Part shown: one piece after another, positions 7,860-31,344 of the stretch
How the letters are laid out: every line of letters begins with the position of its first letter
How positions within the stretch are numbered: the stretch's first letter is position 1
Origin: a virus
Direction: 5' to 3' (one strand)
IMG/VR virus record: IMGVR_UViG_3300018059_000740
Coordinates: 1-33,228 of that record
DNA: 33,228 nt
Notes under the pieces: generated by a model
The model's database searches: none
Told to the model about the DNA's origin: nothing
Seen by the model: only the letters and a program-made list of their open reading frames with translations
Program-made: the position numbers and the translations under genes

Positions 7860-9093
7860 AATCCTTATGTTTTCTGATCACGCGCTCTCGACTTCTGGAG
7901 TTGGGACCCAAAGCAGATACCTCGCTATGAAGCTTATCGATACAGGAAAGTACACCTTCCGGCAGTTCGGTGCAGCCATTAGGCATAGCGATTACAGCAA
8001 CATGCAGCCGCATGAAGATTTCATCATCAAACCAATCGATGGCTTCGGAACTCCCGAAATGATCAGAGTCGCTCTGGCGATGGAAAAGCCAGATGCCGTG
8101 ATGATCTTCAATGATCCTAGGTTTTTCATCCACTTTTGGGAGATGGAGGACGAAATCCACCAGGTGTGCCCTCTAGTTTACTGGCACCTTTGGGACGACT
8201 GCGAATTTCCGCCTATCTACAACAAGCTTTTGTACGATTCGACAGATCTGATAAACTGCATCAATCGTCCCACCCACGACTTTCTCAAGCCCTTGTACCC
8301 TGAAAAGGTGAATTGGGCGCCCCACGGAGTTCCCAGCGATCTTTTTCATCCCCTACCTGATGATGTGATCAAATCCGATAGGAAACTCCTTCTTCAGGAT
8401 CGTCCAGATGATACTCTCATCGTTCTGTGGGTAGCTCGCAACGCTCCCAGAAAGAAGCCAGGGGACGTGGTTTGGGCCTGGAAGCTCTTCTTAGATGAGT
8501 TAGAAAAGAAGCACGGTCATCGAAATGCCCTGCTAGTCATGCACTGCGATCCCTTCGACGTTGAAGGACCGAACATGTTCCAGGTCTTAGATCTGTTCAA
8601 CGTACGAAAAGAAGTGCTGTTCTCCAATGATAAGGTGAACTTCGGAGACATGGCACGGCTCTACAACGCTTGCGATACTCTGATCAATAGAAGCAGCGCA
8701 GAGGGGTTCGGACTGCCGGTTCTAGAGGCTATGATGTGCGGGAAGCCAGTCATTGCCCTAAAGACCGGGGGCCTCACTCGACAGGTCGTGGATTGGAGAG
8801 ATGGTTCTGAAAACGGAATCGCCCTGCCAGTCGAGCTCAGCAGCATGAATGGATCCCAGGCTGTTCCGTACATCATGGATAATTTCGTCACGAACGAAAC
8901 CGTCGTCAAGGCTCTCATGACCATGTACGAAATGGGACCTGACAAGCGGAAGGAACTTGGCAAGAAGGCGATGGAGTACGCCAGTTTCGAATTCAATCTT
9001 GATACCATCACGAAAACATGGGATGAATCTCTCGAAGACTGCATCAAGAATTGGAAGAGTCGGTACAAGCGTTGGGAAAAGGTGACGATATGA
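7837..9093 (+). CDS. GT-B glycosyltransferase, GT4-like (first of two)
   Basis: 418 aa. The N-terminal domain starts KILMFSDHALSTSGVGTQSRYLA, typical of GT-B donors-and-acceptor folds with a Gly-rich loop. The C-terminal domain carries the E-x7-E motif in AEGFGLPVLEAM (Glu289 and Glu297) followed by CGKPVIALKTGG. The GTG at 7837 has GGAG 5 bases upstream, inside the end of HEG3. The stop overlaps the next glycosyltransferase start as ATGA, so the pair is co-translated. The sugar donor cannot be told from sequence; UDP-Galf or a UDP-GlcA-derived sugar is an inference from the glf and ugd genes nearby. Confidence 0.9.
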   Translation: MKVAQKYKILMFSDHALSTSGVGTQSRYLAMKLIDTGKYTFRQFGAAIRHSDYSNMQPHEDFIIKPIDGFGTPEMIRVALAMEKPDAVMIFNDPRFFIHFWEMEDEIHQVCPLVYWHLWDDCEFPPIYNKLLYDSTDLINCINRPTHDFLKPLYPEKVNWAPHGVPSDLFHPLPDDVIKSDRKLLLQDRPDDTLIVLWVARNAPRKKPGDVVWAWKLFLDELEKKHGHRNALLVMHCDPFDVEGPNMFQVLDLFNVRKEVLFSNDKVNFGDMARLYNACDTLINRSSAEGFGLPVLEAMMCGKPVIALKTGGLTRQVVDWRDGSENGIALPVELSSMNGSQAVPYIMDNFVTNETVVKALMTMYEMGPDKRKELGKKAMEYASFEFNLDTITKTWDESLEDCIKNWKSRYKRWEKVTI

Positions 9094-10597: not shown

Positions 10598-11297
10598 AAA
10601 AGGCGGAAGCGAAGAGGCCCGCAACCTTCGAAAGTACTTCACAGAGAAAACGCAAGAAGCGATAGTTGACATTCAGAAGAGCACTGTCAAGGAAGAGAAG
10701 GACAAGCTCTACGTCGAGAAAGTTCTCCCTGCTTTTCAGAAGCTCGTAGAGAACTTGATCAACATCCACAAGTTCACCGACATTTACGATTCGTTCGATG
10801 ATCTCAAGAGCGATTGCGTCAACTTCTTGTTTGAAACTCTCTCGAAATTCGACTCGACCAGAGGGACGAATGCCTTTTCGTACTTCAACGTCGTAGCAAA
10901 GAACTGGTTGATCATTCGAACTAAGCAGAAGTCCGTCAGGATCAAGCGTTACATTAGCATGGATGATCAAGAAACACTTTCTCAGGGAGATCTAGAAGCT
11001 ATCGAAAGCCACCAACATTTGCCTCCGCAGGATGCTGCTATCGAAAACGATCAGCAGAAGGCCAAGGTCATGAAGACCTTGTACGATATCCAAAAGATGG
11101 TCAAAAATGAAAACGAAAAGGTGTGCATCGAGTCCATCATTCACGTTTTCGAAAACGTGAATCAGTTAGATTTCTTCAACAAGAATGCCATCATGCTCTA
11201 CATTCGTGAGCTATCTGGATTGTCTAGCAAGCAATTGACTTCTACCTTGCAGGTTATGAAGAAGAACTACAAGCTGCTCATCGTCATCGACGAGTGA
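10548..11297 (+). CDS. gp55-like late-transcription sigma factor
   Basis: 249 aa. Region-2-like sequence LINIHKFTDIYDSFDDLKSDCVNFLFETLSKFD, then NAFSYFNVVAKNWLIIRTKQKSVRIKRYISMDDQE, matches the pattern of T4-type late sigma factors (gp55), small sigma-70 relatives that direct RNA polymerase to late promoters. The N-terminus is basic (PVKRRIRRKG). The C-terminus ends in a helical segment (LSGLSSKQLTSTLQVMKKNYKLLIVIDE). The start overlaps the membrane gene. It directly precedes the baseplate block, which such a factor would transcribe. A perfect 24-base palindrome lies in its 3' part. The window also holds an RpoD-like sigma. Confidence 0.8.
   Translation: MSTEQPTAPPVKRRIRRKGGSEEARNLRKYFTEKTQEAIVDIQKSTVKEEKDKLYVEKVLPAFQKLVENLINIHKFTDIYDSFDDLKSDCVNFLFETLSKFDSTRGTNAFSYFNVVAKNWLIIRTKQKSVRIKRYISMDDQETLSQGDLEAIESHQHLPPQDAAIENDQQKAKVMKTLYDIQKMVKNENEKVCIESIIHVFENVNQLDFFNKNAIMLYIRELSGLSSKQLTSTLQVMKKNYKLLIVIDE
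11139..11162. repeat. Perfect 24-base palindrome inside the late sigma gene
   Basis: The arm ATTCACGTTTTC is followed at once by its exact reverse complement, with no spacer. It encodes residues around HVFENVN. With no mismatch in 12 base pairs it is unlikely by chance and could form a cruciform, an mRNA hairpin or a dimeric protein site. Confidence 0.8.
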
Positions 11298-15393: not shown

Positions 15394-16028
15394 TGCTATT
15401 TTACGTCTACATAGATTGGACTCTTGAACAGATCCCTAGACGGTTCTACGTTGGCAAGGGAGATGCTGGGAGGGTGAAGTTTATTCGTCGAAACAAACGG
15501 CATCGTGCTATCTCTAAAGCTTACGGGCAACGCAGAGAGGTAGTATTCTCCACCGATTCTGAAGTTGAAGCTCTACAGATAGAAAAGAAGTTGATCGCAG
15601 AATTCAAGACTCGTGGAGATGTCAAAGGTCAGTGGGGAGCGAATTTCACCGAGGGTGGGGATGGTGTCTGCGGGAGGCTTCATGACGAGAAGACTAAACG
15701 ACAGATTAGCCAAAAGATGGCCGGTATACCGAAGTCGGAAGAAACTCGCATGAAGATGCGAGTTCGTAAAGTCAACAAGCGTGTTGTTCAATATGATTTG
15801 AACGGAAAAGAGATCGCAAAGTTTCCTTCTATCAGTGAAACTATTCATCAAACAGGAATAAGCTCGATTAGTCTCTGTTGCCGTCGGGTAATTAAGTCTG
15901 CTGGAAAATCTGTTTGGAGGTACGAAGGAGATCATTTCGATCCCAAAACTCCGTATGTCTGTACACCAGAGCATCGACAAAAGCTGAGCAAAGCTAAGTT
16001 GAAACAGAAAGAATATCATGGCGTCTAG
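15393..16028 (+). CDS. GIY-YIG homing endonuclease with NUMOD motifs (HEG5)
   Basis: 211 aa. GIY-YIG strands YVYIDW and RFYVGKG lie at 4-9 and 17-23, followed by HRAISKAYG and the acidic helix SEVEALQIEKKLIAEF. A NUMOD3-like block (HDEKTKRQISQKMAGIPKSEETRMKMR) and a NUMOD1-like helix-turn-helix (VVQYDLNGKEIAKFPSISET) follow. The start overlaps the gp25 stop and the end overlaps the gp6 start by 11 bases, so the gene was fitted precisely between two baseplate genes. Confidence 0.92.
   Translation: MLFYVYIDWTLEQIPRRFYVGKGDAGRVKFIRRNKRHRAISKAYGQRREVVFSTDSEVEALQIEKKLIAEFKTRGDVKGQWGANFTEGGDGVCGRLHDEKTKRQISQKMAGIPKSEETRMKMRVRKVNKRVVQYDLNGKEIAKFPSISETIHQTGISSISLCCRRVIKSAGKSVWRYEGDHFDPKTPYVCTPEHRQKLSKAKLKQKEYHGV
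15743..15764 (+). repeat. 9-bp hairpin with GAAG loop inside HEG5
   Basis: AACTCGCAT (15743-15751) and ATGCGAGTT (15756-15764) enclose GAAG. One such repeat may occur by chance in a window this size, so its function is uncertain. Confidence 0.4.
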
Positions 16029-19471: not shown

Positions 19472-22400
19472 ATGACGTTTCGCAATCCACTCATCCCGAC
19501 AAATGTCGATCAGGGAGACTTGATCGACATCGTTAAAAACGGTCGAAGCGTTACCATGCGTGGATCGGATTTCTCTGACACGAATTCGAATTCGACCTCA
19601 TCATTCGCATACGACCCGCCTTCCCAAGGTCTCAAATCGACGCAGCAGCTGAATGTCGATTGGAGTCGCTTCGAAAACCACACGTTCTTTAACTCTGCAG
19701 AAGTCAATACCAACGTTGCATTCGACAAGATGATCAATTTCTTTCCGTTCGACGGAACAAGAAGCGAAGTTGAGAGTTTCTTCGAAAAGATGACTGGTTT
19801 CGAAAAGTACATCTACGATCGTTTTCCCAAGAACAACGGATTTCTCTTCTTCAGCAGCAGCTACATCGTCGTCAAAGACTACACCGGAGGATTGTTTCCA
19901 GAAATTTCAAAAACGAGAAGCGGACAATCGGTCCTAGCTCCTGACAGTTCTTTCACAGTCGAGTTCCAGCTCTACATTCCAACAGTCACGAATGATGTCC
20001 AAGTTGTCTTTCAAAAGATAGTTGGAAGCGACGGCATAACGTCATTCCTGACCCAGTCTACGAACGTGACGTCCGCTCTCGTCGGGATGTGTGTTACTTC
20101 AGGTTCAGCGACAACATCCACCAGCGCATCGTTCGAAAAAGGTAGATTCCATCACGTTGCTTTCGTCTATAACAAGAACGACGGAACAAACTACCTGACT
20201 CTTTACAAGAACGGAAGCCCAATTTCTGTATCTTCTGCGAATGACATAAATAGGATCGCCATGGATTCTGCTCCGCTAACTATCGGAAGCGGATCACAAT
20301 TCAGAATTGGAACTCAAACATTCCTTCCAAAAGAAATTCTCTCAGGAGCGATGGACGAATTTCGCTTTTTTCATTCTGCAAGAACGTCAGAACAACTTAC
20401 AAAGAACGCCTACAAGAGCATCTTCCCAACAGACGATCTGAAGTTGTACTACAAATTCAACGAGCCCACCGGTTCGTTCGGTGCCAGCGAAGCCGACTCT
20501 ATCAATGGAATCGTTCTCGATAGCTCTGGTAAATCCCTTCATTCTTTTGTGACGAACTTTACTCAAGGGCTTCGATCGACAGGCAGTCTTTCCGTACCGA
20601 TGACTTACGAGAAAATTACTCTCTGCCCAATTCTCTTTCCAGGGCATCCCGACGTCGTGAATTTGAACACGAGCTTACTCAACTCTGCGAGCATCTACGA
20701 TTCTATCAATCCAAATCTCATAACCAAACTGCTGCCAGCTCACTACATCATGCAAGGTCGAGAGCACGCAGGGTTGGATAGCGACATGGGTCCAATTTCC
20801 AACGCGTACGGAGGAACTAACATCCCTGGAAAGGGTAAGCTCGGCCAGACCCAACTGCTTCTTTCTATGCTCTACGTTTGGGGTAAGTTCTTCGATGAGA
20901 TGAAACTCTACATCGATGCATTCGCTAAATCAGAAGATGTCGATTACGATCCGAACAAGAGTGCAGCCGACCATTTTCTCCCGTTGTTATTTCAAAAGTG
21001 GGGAGTCAAAATCCCGTCGTTCTTCGTAGATTCTACGATAGAACAGTTCATCGATGCAGAAAATCTGAGACCGGCGATTAGCACAGATAGGAACTCTCTC
21101 CAGTACATTCAGAATCAAATCCTTCGTCGTGTCCTTGTCAACTTGAACGAGATCATCAAGTCAAAAGGAACGCAACACAGCGTTCGTTCGTTCCTTCGAT
21201 CCATGGGATTCGATCCAGACAACAGCTTCAGAATCAAAGAGTATGGAGGACCGACACGTCGTAACCTTTCATTCTCTAGAGAATCAAAAAGCGAAATCGG
21301 AAAAATGCTTGACTTCGTATCTGGAGGATACGTGCAAACCCAGGGATTCTTCAGTTCTTCTAAGTTAGAAACTGGATTTCCAGAGTCGCGAGTGACGCAT
21401 ACGTTCAAATCTGTTTTCCCTCCCCATGGTATTTCTGCCAACGTGAACGATGGTCTTTGGACATCTGGGTCATGGTCTTACGAAGGACTCTATCGTTTTC
21501 CGCAAGGTAGACCGACCCCCGCGACCCAGAGCTTAGTTCGTCTTCAGACGACAGGTGCATTGGCCTCTGCACTCCCTGGCGTCATCTTCAATTTGCTAGC
21601 TATCAGCGGAACGACCGCAGCGAACACTCGCATCGTCCTGTACGGTCGCACTGGATTCCAACCCAGCATTACAGGTGTGCCTCTTCTAACGATGCAACTA
21701 ACAGGGTCTAATATCTTCGATGGAGAAAACTGGAACGTGTCATTCGGAATGAGCCGAAACGATGAAGCCCAGTCGTTGTCATCTTCGTATTACCTTCGAG
21801 CTGCCAAACACAACGTCGGGCAAATAACATCTTACGTTACTCAAACGTACTTCAAAGAACTACAAGGAGGATTTAATCCTGCTGCGAGTGCTCTTTGCAC
21901 AATCACAGGTTCGTATAACGCATCGGGAACATTCCTCGCAATCGGATCAGCTTCTCTTCCTTTGGGAACTAACGCCGCAGCATACGTTTATCTCAACACA
22001 TCCGACGCTACGATACCATCAGAAGTTAGATCGACACACTTCAACGGGCAAGTAGCTCAGATGAGATTTTGGTCTAAGAATGTGTCCAACGTTGAATGGA
22101 ATGAGCACATCAAAAATCCGAAATCATTTGGAGTCCAAGATCCCTCAGCAAACTTTAATTTCGCAATCACTCCTACGGGTTCGTTCAGTCGATTGAGAAA
22201 TGACATCTCGATGGACCAGCAGGGTCGAACGACTAATGCAACTGGAGAAATACTTCTGCAAGACTATTCTCAGAATAATCGTCACATGACAGCAACAAGT
22301 TTTCCGGTGAATAAACAAATTTTCTCTCCAGTCATCTGGAACTACGACTTTATTTCTCCGAACTTCGATGATGGAATCACGAATGAAAAGATTCGAATCA

Positions 22401-23714: not shown

Positions 23715-26648
23715 ATGACGCTTAGGGACATTCGTACTAGAAAGAGATTACATGAACTCGATCGCACGAAAGCGAGCTATCCCACAGTAGCACGTACAGG
23801 AGACAAGAACAGAAATGGGAAATTTCCTCTCGTCTTCGACGATACCAACACGGTCATTTTCAAATCAAATGCTTCGATCAGCTATCCCACCACATTCGAA
23901 ACAGGAAGCAAATACCTTACAAGCGACCTACGAAGCGATATCACAATTTTACGAACAGGAACTGTCAATCCATCTGCGGTCGATCCGTGGTTGGTAAGAT
24001 CGTACACGTCAGAACCGCATGCCGCATTCAACGAAAACAAGATTTTCGAATATGATATGCAAAATTCTAAGTTCTTTCTTACGGGATCTAAGAATGAAGA
24101 TGTGGGGATGGGATTTACATCAAATCTTTCTAGCAAAACTATAATTCGTTTTGATCTACCCATGGCATCGAGATATACATTGCTAGACACAACGGCTAGT
24201 GCGTACTACTACGACGTCTCTAGCCGAACGTTTGTCAGGATTCCCAATACGAACCAATATTCACCGGGTGGGGGACTCGGATTTAATGGCGACACTGTGA
24301 ACCACCCACGAAATATTCCGCAACCTAGAGAAGAACTTCTTTTTGGACCTTTGGGGAAATATAGTTCGAATGTATTGAACATAGGAACGGTGTTGTCGCA
24401 AGCGCCTCCACCCCTGCGAGTTACAGAAGTATTCTTCAACAATCTTGCTACAACAAATCTGAATCTAAGCACTACAACACCTAGCGCAAGTCACCAAATT
24501 TCTCTCAATACGATGATTAACCAACCATTTCTTCTTGAGAAATGTGTTATTGAACTTCCTTTTGAAGCGGGACCTGGATGGTTCAACGACAGGACGATGG
24601 TTTCTTGTATCGACGAAAATGTCATTGATCCAGACTACTATACAGATATCGGAGGTCCTGCGATCACTGTCGGATTATTCAATTCTTTCGGTACGACAAA
24701 AGATCTAATCTTGTCAGCGACTATCGTACCGTCTCCGGACAACGTAAAAAGTCTAACTCTAAACAACGTCCACAATCCTCCTTTTTCGTCTTCTATCAGT
24801 AGAGTCATTAGAACTCCAAGCGGATTTGCTACCTTTTCGACGCCTGGTGTTGTTGTTAATCGTCCAAATACAACCACCCAGCAATTCAGCGGATCAGTCA
24901 AAATAGAAATTGAACCGTTCGCTTCTACGGGAATTAGCACGTTATTCCATCGATTAGCACCAGGGTTCGTAGAACAACTGTACTTTAATTCTTCGTTTGA
25001 AAGAAGCAGCATCTTCATCCAAACAGTATGTGGAAGAAGTAAAGTGGGTGGACTAGAAAACCTCACTGGAAGAACAATCTTTGGAAGAACAACCTCTACT
25101 CCCTCTTTTGTAGAAATTCCAAATCCAAGCCTTAGCCTTCACGTCGCTTCAGGAACATCTGGAGTGAATGAAGACATCGTTTATTACACAACAGAAAAAC
25201 ACTCAAAAGCTCCGTACTTGCTATTTCCGCAAGACAAGTTGTTTCTGACCTTGTCGAAATATCGATCTGCGTTCGTCAGCTCATCCAATTTTTCTAATCC
25301 TCCATCTAGATCCCAAGCGACAAATGAACCAAACGCTTTGTATTGGTTCTATCATTCGTCATCTCACGATGTCTCAATTCCCACCGGTACCATTCGGCTT
25401 ACGCTTTACGGCAGCCTTGTACGAGAGAATTCAGAATTCCATGACACGTTGAATTCTCGTCTTGATACCGAACAGATCCATGAGATGATTGGATCAGAAC
25501 CGATAGTAGACGTGTTCGACGTATTCTATTCTACGGAACTTTCGGGTTCGACAATCGATCGATTCATGACGGGAAGTATTTTAACTAAAACTAGCCTCGC
25601 CCGACAAAGGGTGTTTAGTCTTTCTGGTATCGACGATACCAGAAAGACCTTGGTGAATGGAGAGAAGGGAGTTCCATTCGACGATGTTTCTTTAAGCAAG
25701 ATGCTTACTCCTCGTGCTGAAATTGCCACAAATTTCAGAAATATCCAGTGTTCATCTTCCGAAGAAAGATTCTGGGATTCCATGGTCCCTAATATCATTG
25801 ACATTACACGGATCAACAATGGCACGATTCAAGTGAACAGTTCTTTCGCTTCCACGCAGGTTTCGAACGAGATCAGCCTAGACACAGAATCAGCATCATG
25901 CGACAAAGTTTGGACGAAGTCCTTTCCTTTCGAATCGAAGTATTCAACCGTTGCCCGAGTTAATCAGGACAAACTTAGATTCAAAATTTCGAATGATACA
26001 GTGTTCAGAAGTGTGGAAAACCAATTCACAATTGGTTTGCGTCCTGGAGTGGTCGGCGGAAGTCCAGCGGGAACTAACTTTTCTGACACATCACCGGCGA
26101 ATTTTAGGGACCATAAAGACACGACGGGATATTCCACTCTTCAAACTGGATTGTTGACAACAGATCTGTTCAAAATCTACTTTGGTATTGGTGATCTCAA
26201 TACAATGTATTCGTCATCGCTAGGGGCAGGATACATCGGCTCTACTCAACTCGCGTCATATCGAGTGAAAGCTCACGATCAAACTCAAAACTGGGACTAT
26301 CTCCACAAACCCCTGATCAGAGGATGGAAATATGGTCTTGCTTCAGGTTTACCCTTATTCACGAAGGCAGTTTTCGCAAGAAACAGATACGGATTCATGA
26401 GAGACATGCTTGAACAAAGAATTGATACGAAATTCTTAGCTCAAGGAATGAACATTAGAGCAACTGACTCTGTCATTAGGGTCCGCTTCGTAAATTCTAG
26501 CGGGGACTCCGTTCGTCCAGAAGAAACATTCTCTTCCAATCTCAGTTTGGAAGTGACTTCATCTTTGCCGTATTTCGACGACGAAGTTAGAAACAGAGAA
26601 GAACCCATTGCATTCGCAAGGGCTAACCAAAGCATCGTGGTGATCTGA
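23715..26648 (+). CDS. Large virion structural protein, unknown family
   Basis: 977 aa, Ser/Thr/Asn-rich and beta-dominated, with many short glycine turns; the N-terminus is basic (TLRDIRTRKRLHELDRTK). It contains repeated beta segments such as SSKTIIRFDLP and GTIRLTLYGSLV, the kind of pattern seen in lectin-like tail proteins. The C-terminus reads RAHDQ-like through KPLIRGWKYGLASGLPLFTKAVFARNRYGFMRDMLEQRID, which is compact and charged. The stop overlaps the next start as TGATG. Two hairpins, one a 31-base near-perfect palindrome, lie inside its coding sequence. Probably part of the outer baseplate or a fibre base. Confidence 0.78.
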   Translation: MTLRDIRTRKRLHELDRTKASYPTVARTGDKNRNGKFPLVFDDTNTVIFKSNASISYPTTFETGSKYLTSDLRSDITILRTGTVNPSAVDPWLVRSYTSEPHAAFNENKIFEYDMQNSKFFLTGSKNEDVGMGFTSNLSSKTIIRFDLPMASRYTLLDTTASAYYYDVSSRTFVRIPNTNQYSPGGGLGFNGDTVNHPRNIPQPREELLFGPLGKYSSNVLNIGTVLSQAPPPLRVTEVFFNNLATTNLNLSTTTPSASHQISLNTMINQPFLLEKCVIELPFEAGPGWFNDRTMVSCIDENVIDPDYYTDIGGPAITVGLFNSFGTTKDLILSATIVPSPDNVKSLTLNNVHNPPFSSSISRVIRTPSGFATFSTPGVVVNRPNTTTQQFSGSVKIEIEPFASTGISTLFHRLAPGFVEQLYFNSSFERSSIFIQTVCGRSKVGGLENLTGRTIFGRTTSTPSFVEIPNPSLSLHVASGTSGVNEDIVYYTTEKHSKAPYLLFPQDKLFLTLSKYRSAFVSSSNFSNPPSRSQATNEPNALYWFYHSSSHDVSIPTGTIRLTLYGSLVRENSEFHDTLNSRLDTEQIHEMIGSEPIVDVFDVFYSTELSGSTIDRFMTGSILTKTSLARQRVFSLSGIDDTRKTLVNGEKGVPFDDVSLSKMLTPRAEIATNFRNIQCSSSEERFWDSMVPNIIDITRINNGTIQVNSSFASTQVSNEISLDTESASCDKVWTKSFPFESKYSTVARVNQDKLRFKISNDTVFRSVENQFTIGLRPGVVGGSPAGTNFSDTSPANFRDHKDTTGYSTLQTGLLTTDLFKIYFGIGDLNTMYSSSLGAGYIGSTQLASYRVKAHDQTQNWDYLHKPLIRGWKYGLASGLPLFTKAVFARNRYGFMRDMLEQRIDTKFLAQGMNIRATDSVIRVRFVNSSGDSVRPEETFSSNLSLEVTSSLPYFDDEVRNREEPIAFARANQSIVVI
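25618..25648. repeat. 31-base palindrome (15-bp arms) inside the 977-aa tail gene
   Basis: The arm GTCTTTCTGGTATCG (25618-25632), one central A, then its exact reverse complement (25634-25648). It encodes around FSLSGIDDTRKT. No T-run follows, so it is not a normal intrinsic terminator. It is by far the longest perfect palindrome I saw in coding sequence. Confidence 0.85.
26018..26038. repeat. 9-bp inverted repeat in the 977-aa tail gene
   Basis: AAACCAATT (26018-26026), CAC, AATTGGTTT (26030-26038). This length can occur by chance in a window of this size; recorded because the same gene also has the 31-base palindrome. Confidence 0.4.
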
Positions 26649-27778: not shown

Positions 27779-28573
27779 ATGAATCGATACGTTACATTGC
27801 TTCTGCTTGCCTGGGTTTCTGTCGTCGGAGGGTGCATGCACCATACCGAAGTCCGGGTCCCTCTCCCCACCCAGACGAAATCTCAGACAGTGGCCTTGGT
27901 AGAAACCATCGAAGGCCACGTTCAGGTGGGTTGCACCGGAGTGTGGGTCAACGAAGATACGATCCTCACAGCTCGCCACTGCATTGAAGGTTCAGCCAAA
28001 TTGCACTGGTTGCTCAAGATTGAAGACCCTGTCGACCGATTCATCGCGATGTTGACACATCAAGTTCCGGAGTTCGAAGACAAGCAACTCGTTGGAGAAA
28101 ACGCTTACTACATTGTCGAGAGCGAAGTTACCAACGTGGGAGAGAATCCGAAGACCACGCATGCTGGGAAGGTCATAGCGGTCAGCAAAGAAAAAGATCT
28201 TGCCATCATCAAGACGGTTGGACCTCATCCTGTCCATCTCTCTGCGGCAATAGTGACATCCGTTCCCGAAACGGGAGCAGATGTTGTAGTCGTCGGCCAT
28301 ACTAGGGGGCTGTACTACACGTACATGAAGGGAACCGTCTCCAATGTGAGGCAGTCTCTGTCAGATGAGGAAGAGATTTTGGGACCGTACGTCCAGATCA
28401 TCGCTCCGATCTGGTACGGCAATTCTGGTGGTGGAGCATTTACCACGTCGGGGGATCTGATTGGCATCGCATCGTTCATGGTCGAGGCGCCGAACCAAGG
28501 ATTCTTCATTCACCCAGAAACCATCAGGAAGTTCCTCGAGGCGAGTAAGATCACGTACAAAGTTTCCCGGTGA
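27779..28573 (+). CDS. Lipoprotein trypsin-like serine protease
   Basis: 264 aa. The N-terminus is a lipoprotein signal peptide (MNRYVTLLLLAWVSVVGGC), with Cys19 as the lipidated residue and Met at +2, which in Gram-negatives favours the outer membrane. The catalytic triad is complete: His67 in ILTARHC, Asp140 in KEKDLAI, Ser216 in YGNSGGGAF. Cys52 and Cys68 match the chymotrypsin-family His-loop disulfide. An extended insert lies between His and Asp. A secreted, membrane-anchored protease in a phage suggests action on the host envelope, such as degrading surface proteins or blocking superinfection; this is inference. It has its own leader and is followed by an apparent small RNA. Confidence 0.92.
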   Translation: MNRYVTLLLLAWVSVVGGCMHHTEVRVPLPTQTKSQTVALVETIEGHVQVGCTGVWVNEDTILTARHCIEGSAKLHWLLKIEDPVDRFIAMLTHQVPEFEDKQLVGENAYYIVESEVTNVGENPKTTHAGKVIAVSKEKDLAIIKTVGPHPVHLSAAIVTSVPETGADVVVVGHTRGLYYTYMKGTVSNVRQSLSDEEEILGPYVQIIAPIWYGNSGGGAFTTSGDLIGIASFMVEAPNQGFFIHPETIRKFLEASKITYKVSR

Positions 28574-28596
28574 ATGACATCAGATCACCTCAAATT

Positions 28597-28629
28597 CATA
28601 CCATGTAAAAACCAATGTTTCATGGTATG
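28597..28629. repeat. 9-bp inverted repeat downstream of the protease gene
   Basis: CATACCATG (28597-28605), 15 bases, then CATGGTATG (28621-28629). A 10-base palindrome GAAGGCCTTC follows at about 28640. Together they could end the protease transcript without a T-run or form an operator before the promoter at 28662. Confidence 0.5.
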
Positions 28630-28661
28630 GAAGGGCCTGGAAGGCCTTCAGGGTGGCATGG

Positions 28662-28692
28662 TTGACAATCAAAACCTAATTCCTGGTATACT
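28662..28692 (+). promoter_or_regulatory. Strong sigma70-type promoter with extended -10
   Basis: A perfect -35 TTGACA (28662-28667) and -10 TATACT (28687-28692) preceded by TGG, giving an extended -10; the spacer is 19 bases. The expected start is near 28699. No plus-strand coding region follows, only a terminator, so the product should be a short RNA. Confidence 0.65.
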
Positions 28693-28698
28693 CAGATA

Positions 28699-28790
28699 AC
28701 CCAAAAATATTTCCGTAGATACAGAAGGTTTGGTAGGTTAAAGTACAAACGTCCGAGCAGGAGAACCCTGCTCGGACGTTTCGTTTTTCT
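28699..28790 (+). ncRNA. Candidate ~90-nt small RNA
   Basis: It is bounded by the strong promoter at 28662-28692 and the 15-bp terminator ending near 28790. The body (28699-28746) has no ATG and no open frame of note, and includes the purine-rich stretch AGAAGGTTTGGTAGG, which could pair with mRNA. It does not look like a tRNA or a known RNA family that I can recognise. Ends are predicted, not measured. Confidence 0.5.
28747..28790 (+). terminator. Very strong intrinsic terminator
   Basis: AAACGTCCGAGCAGG (28747-28761), loop AGAAC, then the exact complement (28767-28781), followed by CGTTTTTCTT. It is a 15-bp perfect GC-rich stem with a T-run on the plus strand. On the minus strand it lies just past the end of the gene at 28799 and could also stop that transcript, though with a poorer T-run. 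Confidence 0.9.
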
Positions 28791-28798
28791 TGGTGCAG

Positions 28799-29427
28799 CT
28801 ACTTGATGATGACTCTGTTTCTTCTTTGTTTGTTCATCGTAGTCATACGTTCACTAAGAGTTTTTCTATGTTCTGGAGACATGCCTCTCGCAAGATGTGT
28901 TGTTCTAATAGCTTCTTTAGATTTTTCTGAATGTTTCCAGCCCTTTCGGGCTCTATTTGCCGCGCGGATTTTTTCTTTACCTTCTGGACTTTGTTCTTTA
29001 CCAAACCGAGGATTGTTTTCTCCACTAAGCAATTTAGACAATAGCATTTTATGTTCAACACTTAGTGCCCCGCGAACGCATCTCAATTTATTTTTTGATT
29101 CTTCTGTGTGGTAGTGCCCTTTAAATCCTAAAGAAATCCGACCGCCGGGTTCTTGGTTGTATCCTACAGAATAATTTTGACTGTTCAACAGTTTGATCAA
29201 TACAGTTTCTGTATCGTTAGCTGTTTGTACATTATCACAAACAGCAAGTAATTCTATTCGAAGTTGAAATTTTTGTATTTTCGAATTGCGCAGTAAAATC
29301 GTCGCTTAAGATCTCTACGAGCAGAATAGAAATGTTCCTGTAGACGCTTGCGAATTGTTTTCTTTGTTGCGCCAACGTATATTTTTCCATTAGCGACGTT
29401 CGTGATCAGGTAAATCGAATAGATCAT
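28799..29427 (-). pseudogene. GIY-YIG/NUMOD3 homing endonuclease broken by a frameshift (HEG6)
   Basis: The first part, 29427-29254, encodes 57 aa from an ATG: IYLITN and KIYVGAT are the GIY-YIG strands, with RKRLQEHF. It ends at a TAG at 29256-29254. The protein continues in the -1 frame: IELLAVCDNVQTANDTE, then a NUMOD3-rich tail (NNPRFGKEQSPEGKEKIRAANRARKG, HSEKSKEAIRTTH) to the stop at 28799. Inserting one A into TTCGAATAGAA restores an unbroken NFEIELLAVCDN typical of the family, so loss of one base in an A-run is the simple explanation. A canonical -1 slippery heptamer AAATTTC lies just upstream in the right frame, so residual full-length product cannot be excluded. Its start overlaps the upstream gene by 38 bases. 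Confidence 0.85.
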
Positions 29428-29991: not shown

Positions 29992-30295
29992 TTTCCTCTT
30001 TCTTCGAGTACTGCTTGGTCTTTTTCTCCACGGGTTTTTCTTCTACTGCTGCCGTGCCCATCGTATTGTCAGGCACGTTTGGTACTACCGTCGCTGGATC
30101 GATGCGAACTTGGGTGGGAGCATCGGCCCGTGTATGAGCTTTCGGTAGAGGGATATCAACCACTCCATCGTTCTTCTCACACCACGCGTGAATTTCATTC
30201 AGAGATGTCATTCCCATCTGGGACATCCACTCCTGCAGCGTTTGCTTTCTCCTTCTCAGGAGCTCTGCCAGTGATGTTTTTGCTTTCCAAACCAT
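29966..30295 (-). CDS. Small unknown protein with basic helix and charged tail
   Basis: 109 aa from the ATG at 30295, with AGG about 8 bases upstream. The N-terminal helical part (KAKTSLAELLRRRKQTLQEWMSQMGMTSLNEIHAWCEKN) could be a DNA- or protein-binding fold. The tail is Pro/Lys/Glu-rich (VEEKPVEKKTKQYSKKEESD) and probably disordered. The start lies in the 3' end of the frame that encodes sigma region 4 (overlap 101 bases) but 29 bases after the stop of the main sigma frame. Family not recognised. Confidence 0.75.
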   Translation of the reverse strand: MVWKAKTSLAELLRRRKQTLQEWMSQMGMTSLNEIHAWCEKNDGVVDIPLPKAHTRADAPTQVRIDPATVVPNVPDNTMGTAAVEEKPVEKKTKQYSKKEESDPSSGIH

Positions 30296-30593
30296 CTTTA
30301 TACCTATGCGCCTTTTCTAAGAGATCACCCACCGCCGACTGGAACAGCGAACTCCGAGCCATCTCTTCGATCTGGGACTCTGTCAGATTTGCCCCTGTCG
30401 CCTGAGAGAGCTCTCGGGCCATCTTTCTCATGCCCCGCAAGAGCCAGTTCCTCGCTGAGGAATAGTTCATTTTCCAACCCCGGAGAGCTACTGTCTCCGT
30501 AATCCTCTTGAACTCCATCCCATCTCGGTCCGTCACAGTCGAATAAGTCTGTCTCTTCTTCACTTTCATCCACGTCTCCAAGTAAGTTATCAT
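30195..30593 (-). CDS. Sigma region 4.2 segment in the +1 frame of the RpoD-like gene
   Basis: This frame has no stop from about 30597 to 30195. From DRDGMEFKRITETVALRGWKM through NYSSARNWLLRGMRKMAREL it reads as a helix-turn-helix like sigma region 4.2, and LTESQIEEMARSSLFQSAVGDLLEKAHR continues as good helix. The frame in use by the upstream part of the gene is, here, unlike any sigma. An independent start at the ATG 30593 is possible but there is no ribosome site I can see. I treat it as the C-terminus of the same sigma factor, reached by a shift. The last 101 bases overlap the next gene. Confidence 0.6.
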   Translation of the reverse strand: MITYLETWMKVKKRQTYSTVTDRDGMEFKRITETVALRGWKMNYSSARNWLLRGMRKMARELSQATGANLTESQIEEMARSSLFQSAVGDLLEKAHRYKDGLESKNITGRAPEKEKANAAGVDVPDGNDISE

Positions 30594-31344
30594 CTGTCAT
30601 TGGATAAGATGCTGAATCGCTGGGGTCATCGGAAAGACCATATCGCAACCTCAGAACGACGCTCTCCTTCGGAGAAAGCTCTTCTTCCATGACCTTCCGA
30701 ACGATACCCACCAGCTGTTTCTCAGAGATGCAATCGATGGGGTTCGATCCGAGTGACATGTCCGCAAGCACATCCATCCATCGTTGCTCGTACTCTCCTC
30801 CCGATGAAGAACCTGACTTTCTGGGAGCATCGAGAGAAACGATGGTTCCACTGGCGTCGTTTGCCGCCTTGACAAGGCGGGTAGAAGCACCGGTGGCGCT
30901 GGACAGTTCATCCAGGGTCATGCTATCGTCCTTATCCATCGCATTCTTCATCTTCTTGCAAAGACCGACGATGTGAGCGGGCATTCTGACGATTCTCTTG
31001 TTCTTCGTAAGATGCTGTCCGATGGCCTGCCTGATCCACCAGATAGCGTAGGTGCTGAACCGGAATCCTTTCTTCCAGTCGAAGCGTTCCACGGCTCTCA
31101 TGAGGCCGATGTTACCTTCTTGGATGATGTCGTCCATGGGGATTCCGCGTGTTGCGTACCCCTTGGCGACCGAAATGACCAATCGAAGGTTAGAGTTGAT
31201 AATCTTCTTGCGTGCGGTGGAAGAACCTTCTTCCATCTCTTGAAATAGCTTTGTGCTGTCCGCATGAGCGAGAACAGGCCATTTCTTGAGCTCACGCATA
31301 TACTTCGAGAGAAGGCTCTCGCTTTCAGCGTCTAAGAAACCCAT
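30325..31344 (-). CDS. RpoD-like sigma-70 factor (regions 1.2-4.1 in this frame)
   Basis: The N-terminus has region 1.2 (LLSKYMRELKKWPVLAHADSTKLFQEMEEG), region 2 (NLRLVISVAKGYATRGIPMDDIIQEGNIGLMRAVERFDWKKGFRFSTYAIWWIRQAIGQ), then region 3 (KNKRIVRMPAHIVGLCKKM) and the start of region 4 (LSPKESVVLRLRYGL, 223-237). After that the frame runs into an acidic linker and then a Gly/Pro/Ser/Asp-rich tail with no sigma character (about residues 275-339). The expected region 4.2 helix-turn-helix is found in another frame at 30593-30195. The full factor therefore needs a +1 shift somewhere between 30597 and about 30520, by a mutation, a sequencing error or programmed frameshifting. Primary-like sigma domains in a phage imply redirection of host RNA polymerase. 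Confidence 0.85.
   Translation of the reverse strand: MGFLDAESESLLSKYMRELKKWPVLAHADSTKLFQEMEEGSSTARKKIINSNLRLVISVAKGYATRGIPMDDIIQEGNIGLMRAVERFDWKKGFRFSTYAIWWIRQAIGQHLTKNKRIVRMPAHIVGLCKKMKNAMDKDDSMTLDELSSATGASTRLVKAANDASGTIVSLDAPRKSGSSSGGEYEQRWMDVLADMSLGSNPIDCISEKQLVGIVRKVMEEELSPKESVVLRLRYGLSDDPSDSASYPMTDDNLLGDVDESEEETDLFDCDGPRWDGVQEDYGDSSSPGLENELFLSEELALAGHEKDGPRALSGDRGKSDRVPDRRDGSEFAVPVGGG

Follow-up and report, generated by a model that had tools for sequence, protein, structure and literature searches.

A probable bidirectional terminator behind a promoter-like sequence at a convergent gene junction in an uncultured large phage

Background

Regions between convergent genes are where termination signals are expected (PMC1852404). 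Short RNAs with promoters of their own are also described from phages: OOP RNA of phage lambda is 77 nt long and is made from its own promoter, pO (PMC12197685), which by analogy shows that phage RNAs of the size and layout considered below exist. Early screens for bacterial small RNAs (sRNAs) searched empty intergenic regions for an own promoter together with a Rho-independent terminator, and conservation served as a further hallmark (PMC9438474). The locus described here, in an uncultured large phage, combines elements of these systems. A sequence-only reading had taken it for an sRNA unit; the analysis below leads to a different emphasis.

The strand switch

The window, that is, the whole stretch of DNA analysed, is a virus record of 33,228 bp. 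Over the shared parts compared, it does not differ from a longer contig of 55,589 bp, IMGVR_UViG_3300021090_000026, and the two were merged into a sequence of 68,231 bp (~68.2 kb) for this phage. At the junction, a tail/baseplate (late structural) block on the plus strand meets a minus-strand regulatory block head-on. Plus-strand genes extend to 28573 and minus-strand frames start at 28799, with 225 bp between, so that the site does lie between convergent gene blocks, as had been proposed. The lipoprotein gene said to precede it is also there: the final plus-strand gene (27779..28573) encodes a trypsin-like serine protease (Trypsin_2) with the lipobox VVGGC. No homologue of this protease was found in 15 related records searched, many of them fragments, and a search for a donor of the gene gave nothing close.

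Read from the protease gene onwards, the 225-bp gap contains a 12-bp dyad, then TTGACA and an extended -10, then about 55 bp without an ORF, and finally a 15-bp hairpin with a T-run. The dyad is near-perfect (CATACCATG(T)AAA..TTTCATGGTATG) and is followed by the palindrome GAAGGCCTTC; together they occupy 28597..28629, unstranded, and could be either an RNA hairpin behind the protease gene or an operator.

On the far side of the gap, 17 bp from the hairpin, is the stop of a GIY-YIG/NUMOD3 homing endonuclease gene (28799..29425, minus strand). This gene is split into two reading frames near 29290, with the GIY-YIG part and the NUMOD3 part in different frames, and the frame change is identical in both contigs. 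It is the first gene of the minus-strand block, followed by a small gene and then a sigma factor gene. The sigma-70 gene (30195-31344, minus strand) has region 2 (regions 2-3 in the relative L143) and is followed by a small HTH-like gene; it appears to be without region 4.2, L143 giving just a truncated region-4 match. The pair formed by the sigma-70 gene and the small HTH-like gene is kept in about 75 related contigs. A likeness between the small HTH-like protein and sigma region 4.2 was seen by eye only, and profile comparison gave no support for it.

The terminator hairpin

The claimed 15-bp perfect terminator with a T-run was confirmed. The hairpin (28747..28781, unstranded) has a stem of 15 perfect pairs (28747-28761/28767-28781), a 5-nt loop and the tail CGTTTTTC, with the T-run of the plus-strand terminator at 28784..28788. 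Its terminator score is 27.5 on the plus strand and 20.7 on the minus strand, where the tail, TTTGTACTTT, is weaker and the score still positive. It is the only strong U-tailed terminator in the 68.2 kb of this phage; perfect stems of at least 12 bp are expected 0.03 times on average (30 dinucleotide shuffles of the 68-kb sequence), and the hairpin with its T-tail is far beyond chance. Taken as a terminator, it is ordinary. That it scores as a terminator both ways is as expected between convergent genes, and a GC-rich perfect hairpin, a T-run on the plus strand, a positive minus-strand score and convergent genes are all present. By these features, the selected element is best read as a strong bidirectional intrinsic terminator.

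A search of viral and genome collections with the hairpin sequence matched only the identical contig, and genome_contigs gave no match. A palindrome in L144 has the same core (CGAGCAGG); as it belongs to the coding sequence of a converging gene, the likeness was judged a coincidence. Separately, perfect hairpins of 9-14 bp are in excess within structural genes, those of at least 10 bp giving 11 counts in 68 kb versus 0.5 in shuffles; examples in the window lie at 11139-11162, 15743-15764, 19503-19530, 25618-25648 and 26018-26038. A 15-bp perfect hairpin in the related genome G003 (L113:13553-13590) covers the start region of a gene and is possibly a translational switch.

The promoter-like sequence

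Upstream of the hairpin, on the plus strand, are the -35 element TTGACA (28662..28667) and an extended -10, TGG-TATACT (TGGTATACT, 28684..28692). The sequence-only reading was correct about the perfect TTGACA and the extended -10, but it overlooked the spacer between TTGACA and TATACT, which is 19 bp, where the optimum for a promoter is 17 bp; a standard scan with spacers of 16-18 bp rejects this candidate sRNA promoter. It is the only extended -10 promoter with 11/12 consensus bases in the 68.2 kb. In 100 dinucleotide shuffles, promoters matching at least 11/12 with spacers of 15-20 bp occur on average 0.9 times per 68 kb, and those that also carry TG are expected 0.07 times, versus one found. 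For any one terminator, the chance that the 250 bp upstream contain a match of at least 11/12 on the right strand comes to about 0.4%, a figure derived from 2 matches of this quality found in 136 kb of strand, with criteria picked after the site had been seen. By itself, the promoter is only moderately unusual. No spacer, 19 bp included, is preferred among the canonical sigma-70-like matches in 1.6 Mb of sequence from the clade, and most of them are therefore background.

The promoter family that this phage uses can be read from its sequence and serves as a yardstick for the unit, a side result that is perhaps more useful. A two-block search and pattern scan gave eight sites of the form [AT]TGAA[CA]-N17-TG[GA]TANAAT in this phage: L009:13728(-), L009:16801(-), L010:182(-), L010:3937(-), L010:4249(-), L010:9630(+), L010:10851(+) and L010:12474(+). 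All eight are outside the window, to its right (46-65 kb of the merged sequence), and 7/8 are 11-89 bp upstream of an open frame; the family looks like a set of early, host-type extended -10 promoters. The promoter-like sequence at the junction has in common with it a -10 extended by TG and, in the -35, the letters TGA. Because its spacer (19 versus strictly 17) and its -10 (TATACT versus TANAAT) differ, it is a plausible promoter that falls outside the family.

Directional word counts upstream of clade genes brought out GTGCAAAG-like words and ATATTTA and, lower in the list, TGGTATA, which occurs in 14 regions versus 3 in reverse. The GTGCAAAG motif is directional across the clade and precedes TATACT/TATAGT-like boxes by about 18 bp in the upstream regions of genes (L170, L174, L186, L145, L135 and others); motif and box together are probably a promoter of the clade, one whose -35 is unusual. 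In a MAFFT alignment of promoters the TGG motifs failed to line up, and the alignment was set aside.

The promoter is directed at the minus-strand block, leading to the suggestion that it opposes minus-strand transcription or primes DNA replication and that the short RNA is irrelevant. This is highly improbable, given that the strong terminator stands between the promoter and the minus-strand block and that the site has no marked GC-skew switch.

The putative RNA

An own promoter, no ORF, an own terminator and an intergenic position together form the layout that searches for sRNA genes classically look for. A plus-strand transcript predicted to run from A28699 to the end of the T-run (28699..28788) would be about 90 nt long, in line with the span originally given. 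The statement that no open frame lies between also holds: there is no ORF of at least 20 aa from the -10 to the stem. A 41-aa frame that runs through the promoter (28574-28699) was judged to be noise. The 5' part had been described as purine-rich, but by a count made by eye it is only about 58% purine.

A true regulatory sRNA of ~90 nt would act through base pairing of its unstructured 5' 48 nt with phage or host mRNAs. Its own candidate promoter, with an extended -10 like those of the other phage promoters, the strong Rho-independent terminator, the intergenic position, the lack of an ORF and an open, single-stranded 5' part are what such a gene would have, and the earlier reading is partly borne out. 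Other results speak against it. The unit is absent from all relatives examined, in sequence and in structure, these relatives being distant; the 5' part folds no better than random, with no structure outside the terminator; and the spacer departs from the 17 bp of the phage family. Target prediction, which had been proposed for the 5' part, was run on the phage, and 95/150 shuffles gave targets as good as its best ones. The unit has no match in Rfam at the gathering threshold, and a permissive scan gave sub-threshold matches only, including Streptococcus Spd-sr07 (RF02418), which at 26.6 bits (E 0.035) versus a gathering cutoff of 55 is not credible; a literature search on Spd-sr07 found nothing. 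A regulatory sRNA, suggested by the layout, is possible but unlikely. A more specific proposal, a lineage-specific phage sRNA born at a rearrangement junction, made by host polymerase from the extended -10 and acting on host mRNAs, is more doubtful still. If transcribed, the unit would add one small RNA to those known, here from an uncultured large phage and a site that rearrangement created, and would illustrate how small RNAs of this kind arise.

Relatives and the origin of the junction

The baseplate wedge protein finds related contigs at 54% identity; two of these, G002 (309 kb) and G003 (89 kb), have the sigma factor as well, together with the structural protein next to it. The promoter-terminator unit was found neither in these two nor in L143 and G009, which reach the structural/regulatory boundary and have genes that overlap tail to tail there. 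Related phages had been put forward as a check on conservation; neither promoter nor terminator is kept at the corresponding boundary. Related loci totalling 2.04 Mb gave a list of 48 perfect terminators with 10 bp or more, some of them entered for both strands, and an equally good promoter within 150 bp upstream was found for none. The sole candidate at such a distance matches 10/12, lacks TG and was set aside because 14 bp to the stem is too close for a comparable RNA. A 16/17-base match to the 5' part in L126 is coding sequence and at chance level.

In this phage the sigma block comes directly after the junction; in G003 they are separated by about 23 kb that includes tRNA arrays. Compared with the nearest relatives, a marker gene (KQVIVIRKDL..), found at 41.8 kb in the merged sequence, has changed sides. 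Since gene order differs from that of the relatives, the junction is not ancestral. The tRNA arrays of the relatives comprise 26 and 32 genes, in the block beside the strand switch (L111, L113, L114), and one tRNA-Gly was found in this phage by a scan that began beyond the leftmost ~13.7 kb of the window.

One explanation for the pairing of promoter and terminator is that both belonged to an accessory cassette (moron) whose gene was removed when the junction was rearranged. The relative L143 has a cassette of this kind (L143:8350-8850), made up of an AT-rich promoter-like region, a gene for a 76-aa lipoprotein (8498-8728) and a 12-bp terminator, and a junction that is rearranged and bears a split endonuclease gene next to a protease gene lacking homologues in the related records is consistent with such a loss. 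A deletion scar is nevertheless improbable, as promoter and terminator are intact and no recognisable gene remnant lies between them.

Preferred explanation

It is considered just probable that the element is a bidirectional terminator at a rearranged convergent junction, and that any ~90-nt RNA made from the promoter preceding it has no dedicated part in regulation. A rearrangement, as judged from the closest relatives known, would have brought the late structural and regulatory blocks head-on, with the protease gene and the split homing endonuclease gene at the join. The terminator would stop plus-strand transcripts leaving the protease gene and minus-strand transcripts leaving the endonuclease/sigma block. 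Host RNA polymerase may initiate at the plausible extended -10 promoter, with its 19-bp spacer, at a low to moderate level, and the resulting RNA would end at the same terminator, most likely with no dedicated role in regulation.

Support for this explanation comes from the 15-bp hairpin, which has no other strong terminator beside it in the 68 kb, a positive score in either direction and a place exactly between the convergent blocks. The differing gene order, the absence of both elements in relatives, the unstructured 5' part and the lack of a target signal also support it. A terminator is expected between convergent genes in any case, but it needs no promoter in front. Moreover, noise alone is unlikely to have placed TTGACA and TGGTATACT so fittingly (0.07 such sites expected over the 68 kb), and the directional enrichment of TGGTATA upstream of clade genes (14 versus 3) likewise argues against the explanation.

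Comparison with known systems

Measured against the early sRNA screens, the unit has the layout and lacks the conservation, the relatives at hand being distant. It resembles sRNAs encoded behind a gene in that a candidate promoter follows the reading frame, the terminator is shared with the gene and there is no ORF; it differs in being predicted from its layout, in finding no phage targets beyond those of shuffles and in its absence from the relatives examined. Like lambda OOP RNA, the putative RNA would be a short phage RNA of similar size with its own promoter, but OOP is antisense to cII, whereas this unit is antisense to no gene. One feature separates the locus from the bidirectional terminators of bacterial convergent genes, namely a promoter-like sequence that ends 55 bp upstream of the stem. 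It shares with them the perfect GC-rich hairpin, the A-rich and T-rich sides, the tail-to-tail genes and the two-way terminator score.
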